This document shows positions 1,057 through 40,805 of a DNA stretch of 64,000 bases, in pieces. This DNA is from Blastococcus sp. LR1. GTDB lineage: Bacteria; Actinomycetota; Actinomycetes; Mycobacteriales; Geodermatophilaceae. The notes beneath the pieces were generated by a model, which was not told where the DNA came from, did no database searches, and saw only the letters and a program-made list of their open reading frames with translations. The translations under genes were made by a program, and so were the position numbers. Numbering within the stretch: position 1 is the stretch's first letter; each line of letters opens with the position of its first letter. The stretch is taken from positions 558,001-622,000 of the forward strand of contig NZ_JAIUJY010000001.1 in NCBI RefSeq assembly GCF_020166105.1. Reading direction: 5' to 3'.

Positions 1057-1575
1057 TCAGACGTCGCCGAGCAGCAGCAGCCAGGCGATCCCCGCACCCA
1101 CGATCACGAGGATCGGCAGCAGGGTCAGCACCACCCACGGCCAGCGCCGCGACGTGCGCCCGACCTGGACCTGCTCGACCGGGCGGTGGCGCTGCTCCGG
1201 CGAGCTGAACGACAGGGTGCGGTCGCGGCGCTGGGCCGCGGGCGGCTGCGCCATCTCGTCGGTGGGCTGGGAGGCCAGCCTGCGTGCCTCGATGCGCGCG
1301 ACGGCCTCCTCCTTCGTCACCTTGGGCGCCGCCGGCTCGGCCGCGGCCGTCTCCGGCTCGGCCGGGGTCACCGCGGGCTGCGCGACAGTCGCCGGCTGCG
1401 CGGAGTTCGGCGGTGCCGCCGGAGCCGTCACCGCCGTCATCGGCTGGTCGACCCCGGGCAGCGACTGCCACGCCTTCGGGATCGCCGGTGCGGGCCGGTC
1501 CGGCAGCGGCGGCAGGGTGATGTCCCGCGTCCGGTCGTCGGGCAGCGGAGGCTCCTGCTGCGGCCCATCGCTCAC
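1057..1575 (-). CDS. proline/alanine-rich protein with one C-terminal membrane segment
   Basis: I do not recognise this 172-residue protein. The GTG at 1575 is preceded by GAAGGAG at a good distance, so I prefer it to longer upstream starts that run through an Arg-rich stretch. The first 110 residues are a low-complexity Pro/Ala/Glu-rich cytoplasmic region. A short charged helix follows ([16 protein letters not shown]), then a basic segment, and a single hydrophobic helix ([20 protein letters not shown]) ends almost at the C-terminus. This is a tail-anchored layout. It sits alone between glyS and a plus-strand gene. No enzymatic motif is visible. Confidence 0.7.
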
Positions 1576-31103: not shown

Positions 31104-32855
31104 TCAGGCTCGGCGCAGGCGGCGGGAGTTATCCGGCAGCCGCTCCGTGACCCCGCGGGCATCCAGCCACTCCATGAGCGGCACGGCGACCCGGCGGCTG
31201 GTGCCCCACGCCTGCCGGGCCTGGCTGAGCGTGAACGGCTGCGGGACGGTGGCCAGCCGGGTCCGGGCGACGCCCTCGACCTCCGGCGCGAGGTAGACGC
31301 CGTCGCCGATCTTCACCAGCTGGCCGCTGCGCACAGCCGCCGCCAGCTCGCGGATCCCGAGCCCGGCCGCGACCAGATCCGGCGCCTCCGGGGCGGCGAA
31401 CGGGTCGAGGACCAGGCGCGCGCGGATCTCGTCGACGGCCTTCTGCACGGCCGGCGGCAGGTCGGTCGAGCCGTCGACGACCCGGCCCTCGCGCAGGAGC
31501 AGCGGCTCCCGGACGAGGGCGGGCACCAGGTCTGCGCCCGGGAGGTCCAGCGCGCGGCGCACGACCTCCACCGGCGGCCCCGGCTCCAGCGGACGCAGCC
31601 GCCGGTACCGGGCGACGACGTCGGGCACGCGGGCACTCAGCTCCTCCGCGAGCCCCGGCGCGAGCAGCCACGGCCCGTGCTCGGTGGCCCCGGCGGGCAC
31701 CGGCCAGCCCATCGCGGCGAAGTCGGCGGCGCGGACGAACCGGCGGCGGGCGAGGTCCGTGGCGGCTCCGGCGTCGCCGGACGGCTGGGCGGCGAGCTCG
31801 GCCCCCCGCTGCCGGGCCGCACCTCGCCGCCGGAGCTCCGGTGGGTCGACGTCGCGCACGTCGGCACCCAGCACGCGGCGCGCACCGGGGTCACGCAGCA
31901 GCAGCCGGTCACCGATCCGCAGCGGCAGCGGCCTGGTGAGCCGCAGCCGGACCGCGGCGCCGTCCAGCGGTCGCAGCCGTGCGCCGACCGTCGCCGAGCC
32001 GACGTGCACGACCGGCTCCGCCGGCAGCTGTGCGTCCGGTTCGGCGTCGAGGGTCAGGTCGACGACGTCGGTCAGCCGGAACGCGCCCGGGGTCAGCAGC
32101 GCGTCGCCGCGGGAGATCTCCTCGACCGCGACGCCGCGCAGGTTGAGTGCCACCCGGGCGGTGGCCGACGCCTGCTCCACCGACTGGCCCAGGGACTGCA
32201 CGCCCCGCACGGTCACCTCGCGGTCGCCGAGCAGGAAGCGGTCGCCGGCCGCCACGGTGCCGGCGGCGAGTGTGCCGGTGACCACGGTCCCGGCGCCGGT
32301 GATGGTGAACGCCCGGTCGATCCAGAGCCGCACCGGCGCGGCGCCGTCCGGGGCGGGCAGCCCGCCGAGCAGGTGCTCCAGCGCGGCGGTCAGCTCGGGG
32401 ACCCCGGCCCCGGTCACCGAGCTGACGGCGACGCCGGGCACCTCGCCCATCGACGTCGCGGCCAGCCGTTCCCGCACGTCGGCGAGCACCGGCTCCGGGT
32501 CGGCGAGGTCGGACTTGGTGACGGCGAGCAGCGCGTGCCGCACCCCGAGAGCGTCGAGCACGGCGACGTGCTCGGCGGTCTGGGCCGACCAGCCGTCGTC
32601 GGCGGCGACGACGACCAGCGCGGCGGGGACCGAGCCCACTCCGGCGAGCATGTTGCCGACGAACCGCTCGTGCCCCGGGACGTCGACGACGGCGAGCCGG
32701 CGGCCCGAGGGCAGCGTCGTCCAGGCGAAGCCGAGGTCGATGGTCAGCCCGCGGCGCCGTTCCTCGGCCCAGCGGTCGGGCTCCATGCCGGTGAGCGCGC
32801 GGACCAGCGCGGACTTGCCGTGGTCGACGTGGCCGGCGGTGGCGATCACGTCCAC
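31104..32855 (-). CDS. selB: selenocysteine-specific translation elongation factor SelB
   Basis: 583 residues with a GTG start; the start region overlaps the end of selA by ten bases. The G domain shows [34 protein letters not shown] and the G4 motif TKSD, with [11 protein letters not shown] in switch I as in SelB. EF-Tu-like domains II and III follow. The C-terminal third is a string of winged helices that read the SECIS hairpin of selenoprotein mRNA. It carries Sec-tRNA to a recoded stop; in this genome that stop is predicted to be UAG because the tRNA has anticodon CUA. Confidence 0.95.
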
Positions 32856-34156
32856 TTCTCCGCCACCTCCAGCACGGCGTCGGCCAGGGCGTGGTCGGCG
32901 GCGGGCAGGACGCTGCGCAGGTTGAGCAGCGTGCGGTCGTCCTCGACGTAGCCGACGACCGGCCGGGCGCCGAGGCGCAGCGGCTCGGCGAACTCCAGCG
33001 GCAGCGAGACGGCGGCGCCGGGCAGCGGGTGTTCGGGCGCCCCTCCCCCGCCGACCCGCGACTCGGCGTCCACCGCGACGGCGTCGATCCCGGCGTCGGC
33101 CAGCCGGGCGGCGATCGCGCTGGCACGCGCCCGCAGCCCCTCGACGTCGGCGGCGAGCATCTCCTGCACCGGCGGCAGCGGGCCGCGGAGCGTCGCCTCC
33201 AGCGCAGCCAGCGTCGTCTTGTCCACCCGGAGCGCCCGGTAGAGCGGATGCCGGCGCAGCCGCTGCACCAGCTCGGCGCGGCCGAGGACCAGCCCCGCCT
33301 GCGGTCCGCCGAGCAGCTTGTCGCCGCTGGCCAGCACCAGGTCCGCGCCGGCGGCGAGCGTCGTCTGCAGGTCGGGCTCGTCGGGCAGCACGGGATGCGG
33401 GCGGAGCAGCCCGGAGCCGACGTCGGCGACCAGCGGAACGCCGGTGCCGGCCAGCGCCGCCGCCAGCTCGCCCACCTCGACGGCACGGGTGAAGCCGCGG
33501 ACGACGAAGTTCGACGGGTGAACCTTGAGCACGGCGCGGGTCTCCGGGCCCAGCGCCCCGCGGTAGTCGGCAAGCGCGACGCGGTTGGTGGTGCCGACCT
33601 CGCGCAGCCGGGCGCCGGTGCTCTCCAGCAGCTCGGGGATGCGGAAGCCGTCGCCGATCTCGACCAGCTCGCCGCGAGCGATCACCAGCTCGCCGCCGAG
33701 CGCGGTCGCCACCAGCGCCAGCGCGGCGGCGCAGTTGTTGACCACGATCGCGGCCTCGGCGGCGGGCACGGCGCCCAGCAGCGCGGCGATCGCCGCCTCG
33801 CCGCGCGGGCCCCGCCGTCCCGTGCGCAGGTCGAGCTCGACGTCGGTGGTGCCGGTCGCGGCGGCGATCGCCTCGGCGGCGGCAGCCGAGAGCGGTGCCC
33901 GGCCGAGGTTCGTGTGCACGACGACGCCGGTCGCGTTGAGCACCGGGCGCAGGCTCGACGCGGTACCGGGCAGCTCCGCCAGGACGGCGTCGACGGCGCC
34001 CTCGGGGCTGACCTCACCGGCGCGCACCCGTTGCTGCACGCGCTGCACCGCGCCCTTCACCAGCGCACGGCCGAGCCGCTGCCCGGCGTCGGCCAGGCGC
34101 GGGTCGGCGAGCAGCGTGTCGGTGCGCGGCACCTGCCGGCGCGGATCGGCGCTCAT
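32846..34156 (-). CDS. selA: L-seryl-tRNA(Sec) selenium transferase SelA
   Basis: 436 residues from the ATG at 34156 ([20 protein letters not shown]). It is a PLP enzyme converting Ser-tRNA(Sec) to Sec-tRNA(Sec) with selenophosphate. The PLP lysine lies in [14 protein letters not shown] (Lys280). The family opening [20 protein letters not shown] and the [12 protein letters not shown] segment are present. It forms an operon with selB. Nothing looks truncated, so the selenocysteine pathway appears intact. Confidence 0.95.
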
Positions 34157-34202
34157 CGCCCGGGAGCGTAGGCCCCGCACGGAATCCCGGCCGGACCCGC
34201 CG

Positions 34203-34230
34203 TTGACATACAGAGCACGCGCTCTCTAAC
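34203..34230 (+). promoter_or_regulatory. promoter with embedded operator for the TetR/sterol-desaturase unit
   Basis: TTGACA (34203-34208) and TCTAAC (34225-34230) are spaced 16 bases. Between and over them lies AGAGC-ACGC-GCTCT (34212-34225), a 14-base palindrome. The TetR gene begins 30 bases further on, so autorepression through this site is likely. The assignment rests on sequence pattern only. Confidence 0.65.
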
Positions 34231-34259
34231 CTTCCGCGACCGATGTGACGGGAGCAACA

Positions 34260-34856
34260 GTGGCGACCCAGGACGAACGACGCGCGGCGACCCGCGCGGC
34301 ACTGCTGGACGCGGCGCAGGACTCCCTCGTCGACCGTGGCGTCGCCGGCACCACCACCGCCGAGGTCTGCGCCCGGGCCGGGGTCTCCTCCGGGGCGCTG
34401 TTCAACCACTTCCCCAGCAAGGCCGCCCTGCTGGGCGCCGTCGCCGGGCGGGCCTTCGACGCCGCCGTCGAGCAGTACGTCGCCCGGTTCACCGCGGTGT
34501 CCGCCGTGGGCGGCGATCCGCTGGGCGACGCCGTCCGGCTGTTCTGGCAGATCCACGACGAGCCCCGCATGGCCGCGGTCCTGGAGCTGTTCGTCTCGGC
34601 GCGCACCGACGCCGAGCTGGCCGGGCACCTGGCCGCGGTCAACGCCCCGCACACCGTCCGCGTGCTCGGTGTCGCCCGCGACCTGCTGCCCCAGTACGCC
34701 GACCATCCCGCCCTGGAGGCGGTCTTCGACCTCGCGGCCAGCGCCGTCTTCGGCGTCGCGCTCGGCGTCGCCGGGGAGGCCGACCGCAAGAGCCGGGTCG
34801 AGACCCTCGTGACCGTCGTCCGGGCCCAGCTCGATCCCCCCTCCCCTCCCTCCTGA
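34260..34856 (+). CDS. TetR-family transcriptional regulator
   Basis: 198 residues from the GTG at 34260, which has GGGAG five bases upstream; an in-frame GTG at 34245 is the alternative. The N-terminal helix-turn-helix reads TTTAEVCARAGVSSGALFNH followed by FPSKAALL. The C-terminal ligand domain is not diagnostic. It lies 14 bases upstream of the hydroxylase-like gene and likely regulates that gene and itself through the palindrome at 34212-34225. Confidence 0.88.
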   Translation: MATQDERRAATRAALLDAAQDSLVDRGVAGTTTAEVCARAGVSSGALFNHFPSKAALLGAVAGRAFDAAVEQYVARFTAVSAVGGDPLGDAVRLFWQIHDEPRMAAVLELFVSARTDAELAGHLAAVNAPHTVRVLGVARDLLPQYADHPALEAVFDLAASAVFGVALGVAGEADRKSRVETLVTVVRAQLDPPSPPS

Positions 34857-34870
34857 AGGAGCACCGCACC

Positions 34871-35779
34871 GTGGAGCAGTTCCTGCGCGGCTCGCTGGCC
34901 GACATGGCCGAGGTCGACCTGATCCTGTGGGCGATCCCGGTCTTCTTCCTGCTGATGCTCCTCGAGGGCGTCGTCCTGACCCGGGAGGCCAGGGAGGACG
35001 CCATCGACCGCGCCGGCGAGGAGGCGGCACGGAAGGGCTATGCGCTCAAGGACACGGTCACCAGCCTGACGATGGGGCTGGGCAGCCAGATCATCCTGGC
35101 GCTCACCACGCTCCTCGGCCTCGGCGGCTACCTGGTGTTGTGGAACCTCACGCCGTTCGACCTCGGGTCGGGCTGGGTCGCCTGGACCGTCGCGATCCTC
35201 GGCAAGGACTTCGTCTACTACTGGTTCCACCGCGCCTCGCACGAGATGCGGTTCCTGTGGGCCGCGCACGTCGTGCACCACTCCAGCGAGCACTACAACC
35301 TGTCGACGGCGCTGCGCCAGGCGTGGACCCCGCTCACCGCCTGGCCGTTCGGCGCCGTGCTGATCCTGCTCGGTGTGAACCCGGCGCTGTTCGTGCTCGC
35401 CAGCTCGATCAACCTGCTCTACCAGTTCTGGATCCACACCGAGGCGATCGACAAGCTGTGGCGGCCGTTCGAGTACGTGTTCAACACCCCGAGCCACCAC
35501 CGCGTGCACCACGGGATGAACCCTCAGTACCTCGACAAGAACTACGGCGGCATCCTCATCGTCTTCGACCGGTGGTTCGGCACGTTCGAGCCCGAGGTCG
35601 AGAAGGTGCGCTACGGGATCACCAAGCCACTGGAGAGCTACAACCCGTTCTGGGTCTTCGCCCACGAGTACGTCGCGATCGTCCGTGACATGCGCTCGGA
35701 CCGGCGATGGGCCCACCGGGTCGCCCGGCTCTGGCGCGGTCCGGGGTGGGCCCCCGCCCCGGCCACCGCGGACTCCTGA
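34871..35779 (+). CDS. sterol desaturase / fatty acid hydroxylase family membrane protein
   Basis: 302 residues with a GTG start preceded by GAAGGAG. Several hydrophobic segments enclose the di-iron histidine motifs: HRASHE, HVVHHSSEHYN, and HHRVHH with NPQYLDKNYGG. A GKDFVYYWFHRASHE stretch marks the family. The enzyme should hydroxylate or desaturate a lipid or sterol at the membrane; the substrate is not known. It is probably co-transcribed with and repressed by the TetR gene just upstream. Confidence 0.9.
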   Translation: MEQFLRGSLADMAEVDLILWAIPVFFLLMLLEGVVLTREAREDAIDRAGEEAARKGYALKDTVTSLTMGLGSQIILALTTLLGLGGYLVLWNLTPFDLGSGWVAWTVAILGKDFVYYWFHRASHEMRFLWAAHVVHHSSEHYNLSTALRQAWTPLTAWPFGAVLILLGVNPALFVLASSINLLYQFWIHTEAIDKLWRPFEYVFNTPSHHRVHHGMNPQYLDKNYGGILIVFDRWFGTFEPEVEKVRYGITKPLESYNPFWVFAHEYVAIVRDMRSDRRWAHRVARLWRGPGWAPAPATADS

Positions 35780-35833
35780 CCGGTCGGCAGCGGGCCCGGC
35801 ACGTGCTGCCGGGCCCGCCGCCGGCGGCGGAAT

Positions 35834-35929
35834 TGGCGGAGGCGGACGGGAATCGAACCCGCCTGGCCGAGATGCTCGACCACGTCGGCTTTAGAGGCCG
35901 CGGGGGCCACCAGACACCCTGACGCCTCC
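35834..35929 (-). tRNA. selC: tRNA-Sec with anticodon CUA (reads UAG)
   Basis: 96 nucleotides including an encoded 3' CCA. Bases 34-40 form the anticodon loop CTCTAAA, so the anticodon is CUA, complementary to UAG, not UCA for UGA. Between the T loop (TTCGATT) and the discriminator G there are 13 bases (T stem 5 plus acceptor 8), the tRNA-Sec hallmark. There is a D stem of six with one mismatch and a four-base loop TGGT, and a long variable arm with an eight-pair stem. The 8th acceptor pair is T-C, one D-stem pair is T-C, and the outer anticodon-stem pair is G-A. SelA, SelB and SelD lie within 5 kb. UAG-reading tRNA-Sec is reported for Geodermatophilus and Blastococcus. Confidence 0.93.
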
Positions 35930-36588: not shown

Positions 36589-37596
36589 GTGACCACCGCA
36601 TCCACCAGCATCCGGCTCACCCAGTACGCACACGGCGGCGGCTGCGCCTGCAAGATCCCGCCCGGCGAGCTCGAGGCGGTGGTCGCCGGACTGACGTCGC
36701 GAGGGCCGGTCGATCCGGCGGCCGAGCTGGTGGTCGGCCTGGACGACGGCGACGACGCGGCAGTGGTGCGCATCGCCGGGGGGCAGGGGCTGGTGCTCAC
36801 CACCGACTTCTTCACCCCGGTCGTCGACGACGCCTACACCTTCGGCCGGATCGCGGCGGCCAACGCGCTGTCCGACGTCTACGCCATGGGCGGCACCCCG
36901 GTGGTCGCGGTCAACCTGCTCGGCTGGCCGCGTGACGTGCTGCCCACCGAGCTCGCCGCCGAGGTGCTGCGCGGTGGCCTCGAGGTGGCGCAGGAGGCCG
37001 GTTGCCACGTCGGCGGCGGCCACTCCATCGACGACCCCGAGCCCAAGTACGGCATGGCGGTGACCGGCGTCGTCGACATCGACCGGCTCATCACCAACTC
37101 CGGCGCGGTCGCGGGCACGCCACTGAGCTTGACCAAGCCGCTGGGCGTCGGGGTGCTGAACAGCCGGATGAAGGCCACCGGCGAGGTGTCGGAGGAGGCG
37201 GTCGCCTCCATGACCGCGCTCAACCGCGACGCCGGCCGGGCCGCGGTCGCCGCCGGCATCCGCGCGGGCACCGACGTCACCGGGTTCGGGCTGCTCGGCC
37301 ACCTCTACAAGATGGCGCGGGCCAGCGGCGTCACCGCCGTCGTCGACGCCGCCGCCGTCCCCTACCTCACCGGCGCCCGGCAGGCGCTGGCCGACGGGTT
37401 CGTCTCCGGGGGTACGCGGCGCAACCTCGACTGGGTGCGGCCGCACACCGACCTGTCCGGGGTGAGCGAGGACGAGGCGCTGCTGCTCGCCGACGCCCAG
37501 ACCTCCGGTGGGCTGCTGCTGGGCGGCGAGGTGCCCGGCGCACCGGTCATCGGTGAGTTCGTGCCGCGGCAGGAGTTCGTGGTCGTCCTCCGCTGA
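36589..37596 (+). CDS. selD: selenide, water dikinase (selenophosphate synthetase) SelD
   Basis: 335 residues with a GTG start. It makes selenophosphate from selenide and ATP, the selenium donor for SelA. The catalytic motif reads GGGCACK: Cys19 occupies the site that is Sec in some SelD proteins, followed by Cys21 and Lys22. This is therefore the cysteine form and needs no recoding. The AIRS-type N domain continues with LVVGLDDGDDAAVVRIAGGQ. Its 3' end overlaps the opposing transporter gene by 50 bases. Confidence 0.95.
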   Translation: MTTASTSIRLTQYAHGGGCACKIPPGELEAVVAGLTSRGPVDPAAELVVGLDDGDDAAVVRIAGGQGLVLTTDFFTPVVDDAYTFGRIAAANALSDVYAMGGTPVVAVNLLGWPRDVLPTELAAEVLRGGLEVAQEAGCHVGGGHSIDDPEPKYGMAVTGVVDIDRLITNSGAVAGTPLSLTKPLGVGVLNSRMKATGEVSEEAVASMTALNRDAGRAAVAAGIRAGTDVTGFGLLGHLYKMARASGVTAVVDAAAVPYLTGARQALADGFVSGGTRRNLDWVRPHTDLSGVSEDEALLLADAQTSGGLLLGGEVPGAPVIGEFVPRQEFVVVLR

Positions 37597-38457
37597 CCTC
37601 CCGGCGCAGTGCCAGGGCCACCCCGACCGCGCAGACGAGGATCCCGGGCAGCGCGGTCGGTCCGGGGGCCTGGCCGAACATCGCCCACGCCCACAGCGCG
37701 GTCGCCGGCGGGGTCAGGTACAGCAGGGTGCTGGCGGCGGTCGCGCCGGAGCGCCGCACCACGAACAGGTAGCTGCCGTAGCCACCGATGGTCGACAGCA
37801 GCACCAGCCACCCCATCGCCGTCCAGAACACCGGGTCGGCCGGCGGGGCGAACTCCCCCCGCACCCCCGCCACCGAGCCGAAGACGAGCGCGGCGACGGC
37901 GGACTGCAGGGCCAGGGAGACGACCAGCGACTCCGACGGGGCCCACCGCCGCTCCAGCAGCGTGCCCGCGGCGAGCCCGGCGAGGGCGACCACCGGGAGC
38001 AGGTAGGCCACCGGCGCGGCACTGCCGTCCCGAGGTCGCCGGCGACCACGAGGGCCACCCCGCTCGCTCCGACCAGCAACCCCACCCGCTGCCGGACCGA
38101 CGTCCGCTCCCCCAGCAGCGCCCCGGCGAGTGCGGCGACGAGCAGCGGCTGCAGCGCCGCGACGAGGGCCGAGGTCCCCGCGGGGACGCCGGCCCCGGCG
38201 GCCGCGAAGACCCCGCCCAGGTAGACCGCCTGCACGAGGACCCCGAGGCAGACCTGCCGCAGCAGCGGGCCGCGCCGCACGCGGGCGCCCCGGAGCAGCG
38301 CCCAGCCGCCGAGGAGTACGGCGGCGAGCCCGGTCCGCCAGGCCAGCACGGTGCTGACCGGGGCGTCCCGGGTGGCCAGCTCGGCCCCGACGAAGCCGGA
38401 GGACCAGCACACGACCAGGACGGCGGCGGCCGCAGCATCGGTTCGGGAGCTTCTCAC
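37547..38457 (-). pseudogene. EamA/DMT-family transporter interrupted by a one-base frameshift
   Basis: The N-terminal half reads from a GTG at 38457 (VRSSRTDAAAAAVLVVCWSS), through about five hydrophobic segments to VALVVAGDLG. It then leaves frame near 38030. The C-terminal half continues in another frame as DGSAAPVAYLLPVVALAGLA and ends at 37547. Adding one G in the run at 38029-38031 restores one unbroken protein of about 303 residues with two EamA repeats. It could be a real recent inactivation, a sequencing error or, less likely, a programmed shift. It was probably a small-metabolite exporter. The tail overlaps selD by 50 bases. Confidence 0.8.
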
Positions 38458-38466
38458 CGGTCCGAG

Positions 38467-38489
38467 ATAACCACACCGGTCGGTATACT
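38467..38489 (+). promoter_or_regulatory. probable TetR operator and -10 box between eamA and tetR
   Basis: A partial dyad ATAACCACACCGGTCGGTAT spans 38467-38486. TATACT at 38484-38489 is a good -10 for the plus-strand TetR gene 23 bases on. The site lies in the 54 bases separating two divergent starts, so the regulator could control both itself and the transporter. No clear -35 is visible. Confidence 0.45.
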
Positions 38490-38511: not shown

Positions 38512-39078
38512 ATGCCCGATGTGCAGCAACGTCCGCTGACCCCGGCCGGCGAGCGCCTGCTCGCGGCCGCCTCGTCGCTCTTCTACGCCCACGGGATCCG
38601 GGCCGTGGGCGTCGATGCGATCGCCGAGGCAGCGGGCACGACGAAGAAGACCCTCTACGACCGGTTCGGCTCCAAGGACGCGCTGGTCGCCCGCTACCTG
38701 CAGCACCGCGCCGCGCGCTGGCAGCAGGACCTGGAGGAGGAGCTCGCCTCGCGCCCTCCCGGCGTCGATCGGGTGCTCGCCGTCTTCGACGTCGTCCGCC
38801 GCTGGCAGGAGGGGCGAGACCGCGGCTGCGCGTTCATCAACGCCTACGCCGAGATCGGCGGGACCGACCATCCGGCCCTGCCGGTGATCCGCGCCGAGAA
38901 GGAGTGGATGCGACGGCGCTTCACCGACCTGGTCGCGGACACCGGGGCCGCCGATGCCGGACGCGTCGCGGCGACCGTGCACCTGCTCTACGAGGGCGCA
39001 CTGGTGGCGTCCACCGCCGGCGACGACCCCGACGCCCTGTCGACGGCACGGGAGGCAGCCGCCCGCCTGCTCGGATAG
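38512..39078 (+). CDS. TetR-family transcriptional regulator
   Basis: 188 residues from the ATG at 38512 with AGGAGG just upstream. The helix-turn-helix is VDAIAEAAGTTKKTLYDRFG. The GCAFINAYAEIG segment after the DNA-binding domain is typical of one common TetR subgroup. It is divergent from the damaged EamA transporter, the usual regulator-exporter layout, and followed closely by the oxidoreductase gene. It ends in TAG. Confidence 0.9.
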   Translation: MPDVQQRPLTPAGERLLAAASSLFYAHGIRAVGVDAIAEAAGTTKKTLYDRFGSKDALVARYLQHRAARWQQDLEEELASRPPGVDRVLAVFDVVRRWQEGRDRGCAFINAYAEIGGTDHPALPVIRAEKEWMRRRFTDLVADTGAADAGRVAATVHLLYEGALVASTAGDDPDALSTAREAAARLLG

Positions 39079-40702: not shown

Positions 40703-40755
40703 CTCCCGTGGCGCCGTCTTGTCGCACTCCGGGTACGGCACCGCTCGTCCGGGAG
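40703..40755 (-). promoter_or_regulatory. guanidine-III riboswitch (ykkC-III) in the sugE leader
   Basis: Read on the minus strand, CCGGACGAGCGGTGCC (ending 40737) continues GTACCCGG, then GACAAGACGGCGCC; the core spans 40710-40752. These match the conserved ykkC-III core: CCGG pairing CCGG, plus a pseudoknot GTGCCGT with ACGGCGC. An outer stem CTCCCG/CGGGAG (40750-40755 with 40703-40708) covers the sugE ribosome site GGGAG. Guanidine binding should change access to that site. Position, core and target gene agree. Confidence 0.9.
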
Positions 40756-40805
40756 CCGTGATCCCGGCTCGCCCTCGACCATAAGCCTTTCCGTGCGTCA
40801 AAGCA

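Follow-up and report, generated by a model that had tools for sequence, protein, structure and literature searches.

A 64,000 nt stretch of the genome of the soil actinobacterium Blastococcus sp. LR1, here called the window, carries a 96 nt tRNA gene with an encoded CCA, located near intact selA, selB and selD genes that all lie inside the window (Table 1). A first-pass annotation, made from the sequence alone, had described this gene as a selenocysteine tRNA whose anticodon is CUA. The covariance-model search that it proposed supports the described body plan. Specifically, the match to the Rfam model RF01852 covers the full model with an E-value of 6.5e-12, and its score exceeds the gathering score of 47. 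The anticodon loop is CTCTAAA, as had been read, and ARAGORN recovers the same anticodon, cta, but labels the gene tRNA-Pyl.

Table 1. Features of the window and of related loci. Positions refer to the window unless another contig is named.
Feature	Position	Strand	Evidence
SelB, Sec-specific elongation factor, 583 aa	31104..32855	-	TIGR00475 288 bits, cut-off 242
SelA, L-seryl-tRNA(Sec) selenium transferase, 444 aa	32846..34180	-	TIGR00474 415 bits, cut-off 268
tRNA-Sec gene, anticodon CUA, CCA encoded	35834..35929	-	RF01852 65.8 bits; ARAGORN span identical
Anticodon CTA (CUA), predicted to read UAG	35892..35894	-	ARAGORN position 36; sequence; identical loop in 101/112 family genomes
SelD, selenide water dikinase, 335 aa	36589..37596	+	TIGR00476 390 bits, cut-off 125
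Guanidine-III riboswitch	40708-40773	-	63 bits, cut-off 36
Formate dehydrogenase (FDH), 1155 residues	C2:719503-722970 (host genome)	-	NF041513 1916 bits with TAG read through, cut-off 1400
UCA tRNA-Sec of Geodermatophilus sp. LHW52908	L165 (G085 C17) 1169-1263		81.8 bits, near end of 69-kb contig

Alignment to RF01852 gives the tRNA an acceptor/T branch of 8 + 5 pairs (13 in all), a D stem of six pairs closed by a 4 nt loop, a long variable arm and G73. The three stem mismatches that had been flagged for checking do exist; they are U.C at acceptor pair 8, U.C at one pair of the D stem and G.A at the outer pair of the anticodon stem.

The host genome (4.02 Mb, 10 contigs, 100% complete) yields 10 matches to RF01852, the CUA tRNA included. 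ARAGORN typing, which covered the next five, gives tRNA-Ser (three), tRNA-Tyr and tRNA-Leu; the four that remain score 30.6–31.7 bits. The tRNA-Ser genes score 38–50 bits, compared with 65.8 bits for the CUA tRNA. As one tRNA-Ser, at 49.5 bits, exceeds the cut-off, the RF01852 cut-off is insufficient alone, and it is the score together with the anatomy and the gene context that decides. Neither the RF01852 search nor ARAGORN typing found a second tRNA-Sec in the host genome, with UCA or otherwise, which is the finding that the first-pass annotation had named as speaking against its reading. The gene is a tRNA-Sec with anticodon CUA.

The products of selA, selB and selD all score above their NCBIfam cut-offs, in agreement with the earlier description of these genes as intact. 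The selA and selB genes overlap by 10 bases, and SelD has a Cys residue within its GGGCACK stretch. The genes between selA and the tRNA gene encode a TetR-type regulator and a hydroxylase-like membrane protein; both names rest on matches that fall short of curated cut-offs. Elsewhere in the window, the Guanidine-III riboswitch resides directly upstream of a gene that starts at about 40696 and, by an NCBIfam match below cut-off, encodes a SugE-like SMR exporter; this is a known arrangement. There are 24 listed frames in the window that are interrupted by TAG. Two were considered as selenoproteins and rejected, as their translations do not resemble any. A Pfam scan of 20 frames read through TAG (leaving out 32846-35890 minus and 37466-38470 plus) gave a domain match in five, none of them spanning the TAG.

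In our effort to find a target of the tRNA, we searched the host genome for the molybdopterin-binding domain and obtained three Molydop_binding proteins. One of these is a formate dehydrogenase (FDH) whose frame stays open only with readthrough of one TAG, and in that form it matches the actinobacterial formate dehydrogenase model (Table 1). The TAG is at residue 245, in the context ..IENQARI[U]HSATVPG.., and a bSECIS apical hairpin is located 3′ of it. The first-pass annotation had predicted that selenoprotein genes would carry TAG in frame at their Sec sites, and had suggested a formate dehydrogenase with such a codon and a SECIS hairpin as the place to look; both features are present, and TGA is absent from the Sec site of the host FDH. 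The second protein is a full-length nitrate-reductase-like protein and the third an 844-aa frame; both lack TAG and were rejected as targets. The UGSC model, which matched 54 of 112 Geodermatophilaceae genomes, has no match in the host genome, and none of the eight AhpC-TSA matches there contains an inner stop. FDH is therefore the sole target found among the families searched (FDH, UGSC and AhpC-TSA).

The hairpin was compared across 70 FDH copies, with the first base of the Sec codon numbered 0. It consists of a seven-pair stem, with positions 14–20 paired with 26–32, and a loop that reads GGTCT in 59 copies, AGTCT in eight and AGTTT in three. The E. coli SECIS, printed as ggttgcaggtctgcacc in an excerpt of PMC3834832, likewise has the loop GGTCT. 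Stem positions are paired in 264 of 266 cells among the 38 copies with TAG and in 208 of 224 cells among the 32 copies with TGA, and every failure of pairing falls in the outermost pair. In total, 376 of 392 cells are paired in the true register, compared with 128–242 when the register is slid. Pair 17:29 joins two codon wobble positions and is formed in all 56 distinct downstream sequences by five types of pair (GC, GT, CG, TA and TG). Shuffled sequences, which ignore the relatedness among the 56 and against which four of the seven stem pairs are uninformative, give a mean of 28.5 paired at this position, and none of 2000 shuffles reaches 56. The bSECIS stem covaries at these two wobble positions. 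Folding of single sequences recovers the hairpin in many FDH copies, not all.

The CUA anticodon is widespread in the family. The host genome falls in one genus group with G016, a genome whose tRNA stretch is identical to that of Blastococcus xanthinilyticus contig L025, and other genus groups correspond in like manner to Modestobacter, Geodermatophilus and Klenkia. A tRNA-Sec was found in 108 of 112 Geodermatophilaceae genomes, and 101 of the 112 contain an exact match to the CUA pattern. The 11 genomes that lack the pattern are nine fragmented genomes of genera g56-g58 together with G232 and G233 (72–80% complete), and no tRNA-Sec was found in the latter two. In g56-g58, a tRNA-Sec was found in seven of the nine genomes, with UCA in every case (7/7), and the FDH match is absent from all nine (G207-G215). 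FDH was matched in 99 of the 112 family genomes; the match rows contain one TAG each and never TGA, excepting G216, whose two FDH rows end before the Sec codon. Both FDH copies of G216 (L253 and L254) are without the stretch that carries the Sec codon and SECIS, and the frame shifts there; this gap is perhaps an assembly fault, such as a collapse between the two copies. Among the UGSC rows of the family, some have one TAG and others lack a stop, but none has TGA. In all 12 UGSC rows with TAG that were checked (L241-L252), TAG stands at the U of the UGSC motif, D[TAG]GSC.

FDH occurs in 98 of 150 genomes surveyed across the order. The codon is TAG in 18 of 18 family members, and outside the family it is TGA in 75 of 80 FDH-bearing genomes and no stop in five. 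One FDH of another family (G110:C295:6227-6994) carries, in the matched stretch, an additional TAG besides its one TGA. Typed tRNA-Sec loci outside Geodermatophilaceae have UCA in 29 of 29 cases, and that of G066 has UCA too; the tRNA-Sec match in G049 was discarded as a false match. Named genomes, scanned with a pattern, yielded at least 117 stretches, and 40 of these 117 have a CUA tRNA-Sec body. Among the titled stretches up to L096, 31 carry a CUA tRNA, of which 29 are titled to the family (Geodermatophilus, Blastococcus, Modestobacter, Klenkia, Trujillonella or Geodermatophilaceae) and two otherwise. The latter (L047 and L071) bear the titles Bacillus sp. AZ43 and Jatrophihabitans sp.; both have the CUA tRNA-Sec, their sequences align to the window, and they are probably misnamed Geodermatophilaceae. 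A pattern search of viral contigs for the CUA tRNA-Sec returned zero exact matches.

The association between Sec codon and host was examined in an FDH tree built from 70 copies and 507 columns, with the Sec column set to X. The 70 rows comprise 30 loci from the order survey and 40 chosen from the order and family surveys, divergent second copies included. The stop codon falls in one common alignment column in all 70 copies. It is TAG in 38 of 38 family copies and TGA in 32 of 32 others, so that the codon fits its host in every one of the 70 copies. On the tree, the TAG label requires five changes, and the starred branches by themselves force five. An AU test rejects TAG as a single clade (p 7.5e-5, the group having been set by codon before the tree). 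Several second copies of the family branch with TGA copies of other families and yet have TAG (L270 with f13/f16, L273-L276 with f15/f8), and L277, the copy matched in G236, stands beside an f2 copy, yet has TAG. In the genes compared, the codon tracks the host and not the ancestry of the gene. A change from TGA to TAG takes two base changes. With at least five codon changes and a 70 of 70 match to host, FDH copies were rewritten repeatedly; the Sec codon changed on several branches, whichever direction or route applies (transfer in, transfer out or old paralogues).

The tRNA bodies bear on the origin of the CUA form. We compared 62 CUA bodies with seven UCA tRNA-Sec over 92 positions; five of the seven are from Geodermatophilaceae and two (L159 and L161) from another family, and L223 and L226, also UCA, were left out. 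Each UCA tRNA-Sec lies 6 to 9 differences away from its nearest CUA body, and four of these differences recur in every one of the seven. They comprise two letters of the anticodon (TCA to CTA) and the two sides of the loop-closing pair (T-A to C-G). Acceptor pair 8 is U.C in 62 of 62 CUA bodies, and the D-stem mismatch is U.C in 50 and C.C in 12. Because both U.C mismatches are also present in all seven UCA forms, they are inherited features and not errors, and the tRNA body predates the new anticodon. A Modestobacter tRNA (L018) has a compensatory acceptor change from G-C to A-T.

UAG also retains its meaning as a stop. A crude GC3-based gene picker gave, for 59 ORFs of the host genome, 55 TGA, three TAG and one TAA terminators, and a stricter setting gave 53, one and none of 54; one TAG-ended gene is the TetR gene ending at 39078. 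Since some host genes end in TAG, UAG keeps its stop meaning in this genome. TAG accounts for 17 of 194 ends in CUA genomes vs 18 of 99 in other families (Fisher p 0.023), in a sample that is small, phylogenetically non-independent and different in GC content, and we draw no conclusion from it. One TAG of L013 in this count may be the FDH Sec codon itself. We assume that the hairpin discriminates a Sec UAG from a stop UAG.

Given the observed tRNA, sel genes, TAG-bearing target, hairpin and family-wide concordance, the host very probably reads UAG, and not UGA, as selenocysteine in FDH. In the reading that we favour, with a probability of about 0.96, the gene is the sole functional tRNA-Sec (selC) of the strain, its anticodon, formerly UCA, became CUA in a common ancestor of most Geodermatophilaceae, and it serves SelB-delivered insertion of Sec at UAG followed by a bSECIS, with FDH as target. 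SerRS would charge the CUA tRNA with serine, which SelA and SelD would convert to Sec on the tRNA. SelB would then deliver the Sec-tRNA to a UAG with the bSECIS hairpin close behind, in competition with release factor 1 (RF1), and selenium would be incorporated into FDH. UAG elsewhere would remain a stop because SelB needs the hairpin.

Other identities of the tRNA can be weighed against this reading. The ARAGORN label and the cta anticodon would suit a pyrrolysine tRNA, with UAG meaning Pyl. The label, however, tracks the anticodon, as ARAGORN gives it to 31 CUA tRNA-Sec homologues among 80 loci scanned and calls the UCA homologues tRNA-SeC. Moreover, the tRNA body matches RF01852, CUA bodies differ at as few as 6 of 92 positions from the UCA tRNA-Sec of relatives, selA, selB and selD are nearby, and the FDH Sec site has TAG in place of the TGA of relatives. 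The whole-length RF01852 match and long variable arm do not fit a tRNA-Pyl body, and a pyrrolysine function is scarcely credible. A class II tRNA (Ser or Leu) turned nonsense suppressor, which would insert Ser or Leu at UAG generally, might also have a long variable arm, and tRNA-Ser genes do score in RF01852, one of them above the cut-off. The gap between 38–50 and 65.8 bits, the 13-pair acceptor/T branch, six-pair D stem and G73, and the placement of TAG at Sec sites with a covarying hairpin behind them make such an origin extremely improbable. We give just as little weight to a sequencing error in the anticodon, or to a decayed gene copy with UGA still the Sec codon. The three stem mismatches and a covariance score below that of most UCA relatives could be taken in this sense, but the CUA form is present in 101 of 112 genomes with FDH TAG in step, the mismatches are common to UCA relatives, and the Modestobacter acceptor change is compensatory.

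A further possibility is that the family is in a part-way state in which UGA and UAG are both read as Sec and mobile DNA spreads UCA tRNA-Sec genes. It is raised by Geodermatophilus sp. LHW52908 (G085, with sequence identity to that strain over 6001 bases), which has both CUA and UCA tRNA-Sec genes (Table 1). The first 6 kb of contig C17, in which the UCA gene lies, is 64% GC and has a tetranucleotide likeness to family DNA of 0.52–0.59, a score that the shortness of the stretch itself depresses. Beyond 6 kb, the contig resembles the family (0.86–0.92) more closely than it does a 15-kb sample drawn from other families (0.77). An IS30 transposase and an IS110 match below cut-off lie 5–7 kb from the UCA tRNA. 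The low-GC end also encodes a JAB-domain protein, for which PADLOC gave weak hits only. Against a part-way state, this is one genome of 112 and not that of the window, both its FDH and its UGSC have TAG, and selA, selB, selD and FDH were not matched on C17. Inspection of translated TGA-readthrough frames in the first 6.5 kb of C17 revealed no recognisable selenoprotein. We consider a part-way state of the family very unlikely; the UCA gene itself may serve as a second decoder or be a passenger, or it may reflect contamination or an assembly join.

The favoured reading, in which UAG has replaced UGA, has an extension towards which we lean only slightly. The anticodon change might act as a code barrier, with the FDH lineages of CUA hosts each rewritten between UGA and UAG, so that the Sec codon would be set by the host, and the dual-tRNA strain might be a living bridge that reads Sec at both stops. 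Codon changes that can be traced gene by gene are rare, and a natural, clade-wide change of the Sec codon is one of them. Some genera of the family have UCA and the rest CUA, with selenoprotein genes in step. How a recoded stop is swapped without loss of the protein can be tested directly in this setting. There is also a practical consequence, as standard gene calling cuts such FDH genes at TAG and ARAGORN misnames the tRNA as tRNA-Pyl.

The UAG-decoding tRNA-Sec of Geodermatophilaceae was reportedly first described by Mukai and colleagues in 2016. The first-pass annotation stated that UAG-programmed Sec is known in this group, and passages of PMC5330540 bear this out; they give CUA for the tRNA-Sec of three Geodermatophilaceae genomes, state UAG-Sec at the level of the family, cite FDH and UGSC with TAG as reported earlier and add AhpC with TAG from Blastococcus saxobsidens. 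UAG for Sec is also mentioned in parts of PMC5133445, PMC8124441 and PMC10778597, and according to the excerpt of PMC3834832 a CUA tRNA-Sec with UAG and a SECIS supports Sec insertion in E. coli. As UAG-Sec in the family has been published, the core finding is already known. Among the open-licence papers covered by our searches, we found none on UCA genera within the family, repeated rewriting of FDH or the dual strain. What is added here is the distribution over 112 genomes, the UCA-bearing genera within the family and the repeated rewriting of the FDH codon.

The LR1 system resembles the published Geodermatophilaceae UAG system in its anticodon, its family and the use of FDH as a TAG selenoprotein, whereas the targets there are FDH, UGSC and AhpC and the target set found in LR1 is FDH alone. 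With the tRNA-Pyl/PylRS system it shares the CUA anticodon and the reading of UAG, but the tRNA body is different, LR1 has Sec machinery, and action is expected only with a SECIS. The canonical tRNA-Sec(UCA) system (selA/B/C/D and bSECIS) has the same tRNA body, sel genes and GGTCT hairpin loop. In contrast to that system, the LR1 tRNA has a CUA anticodon and a C-G loop-closing pair where its UCA relatives have U-A, UAG replaces UGA, and competition is expected with RF1 instead of RF2.
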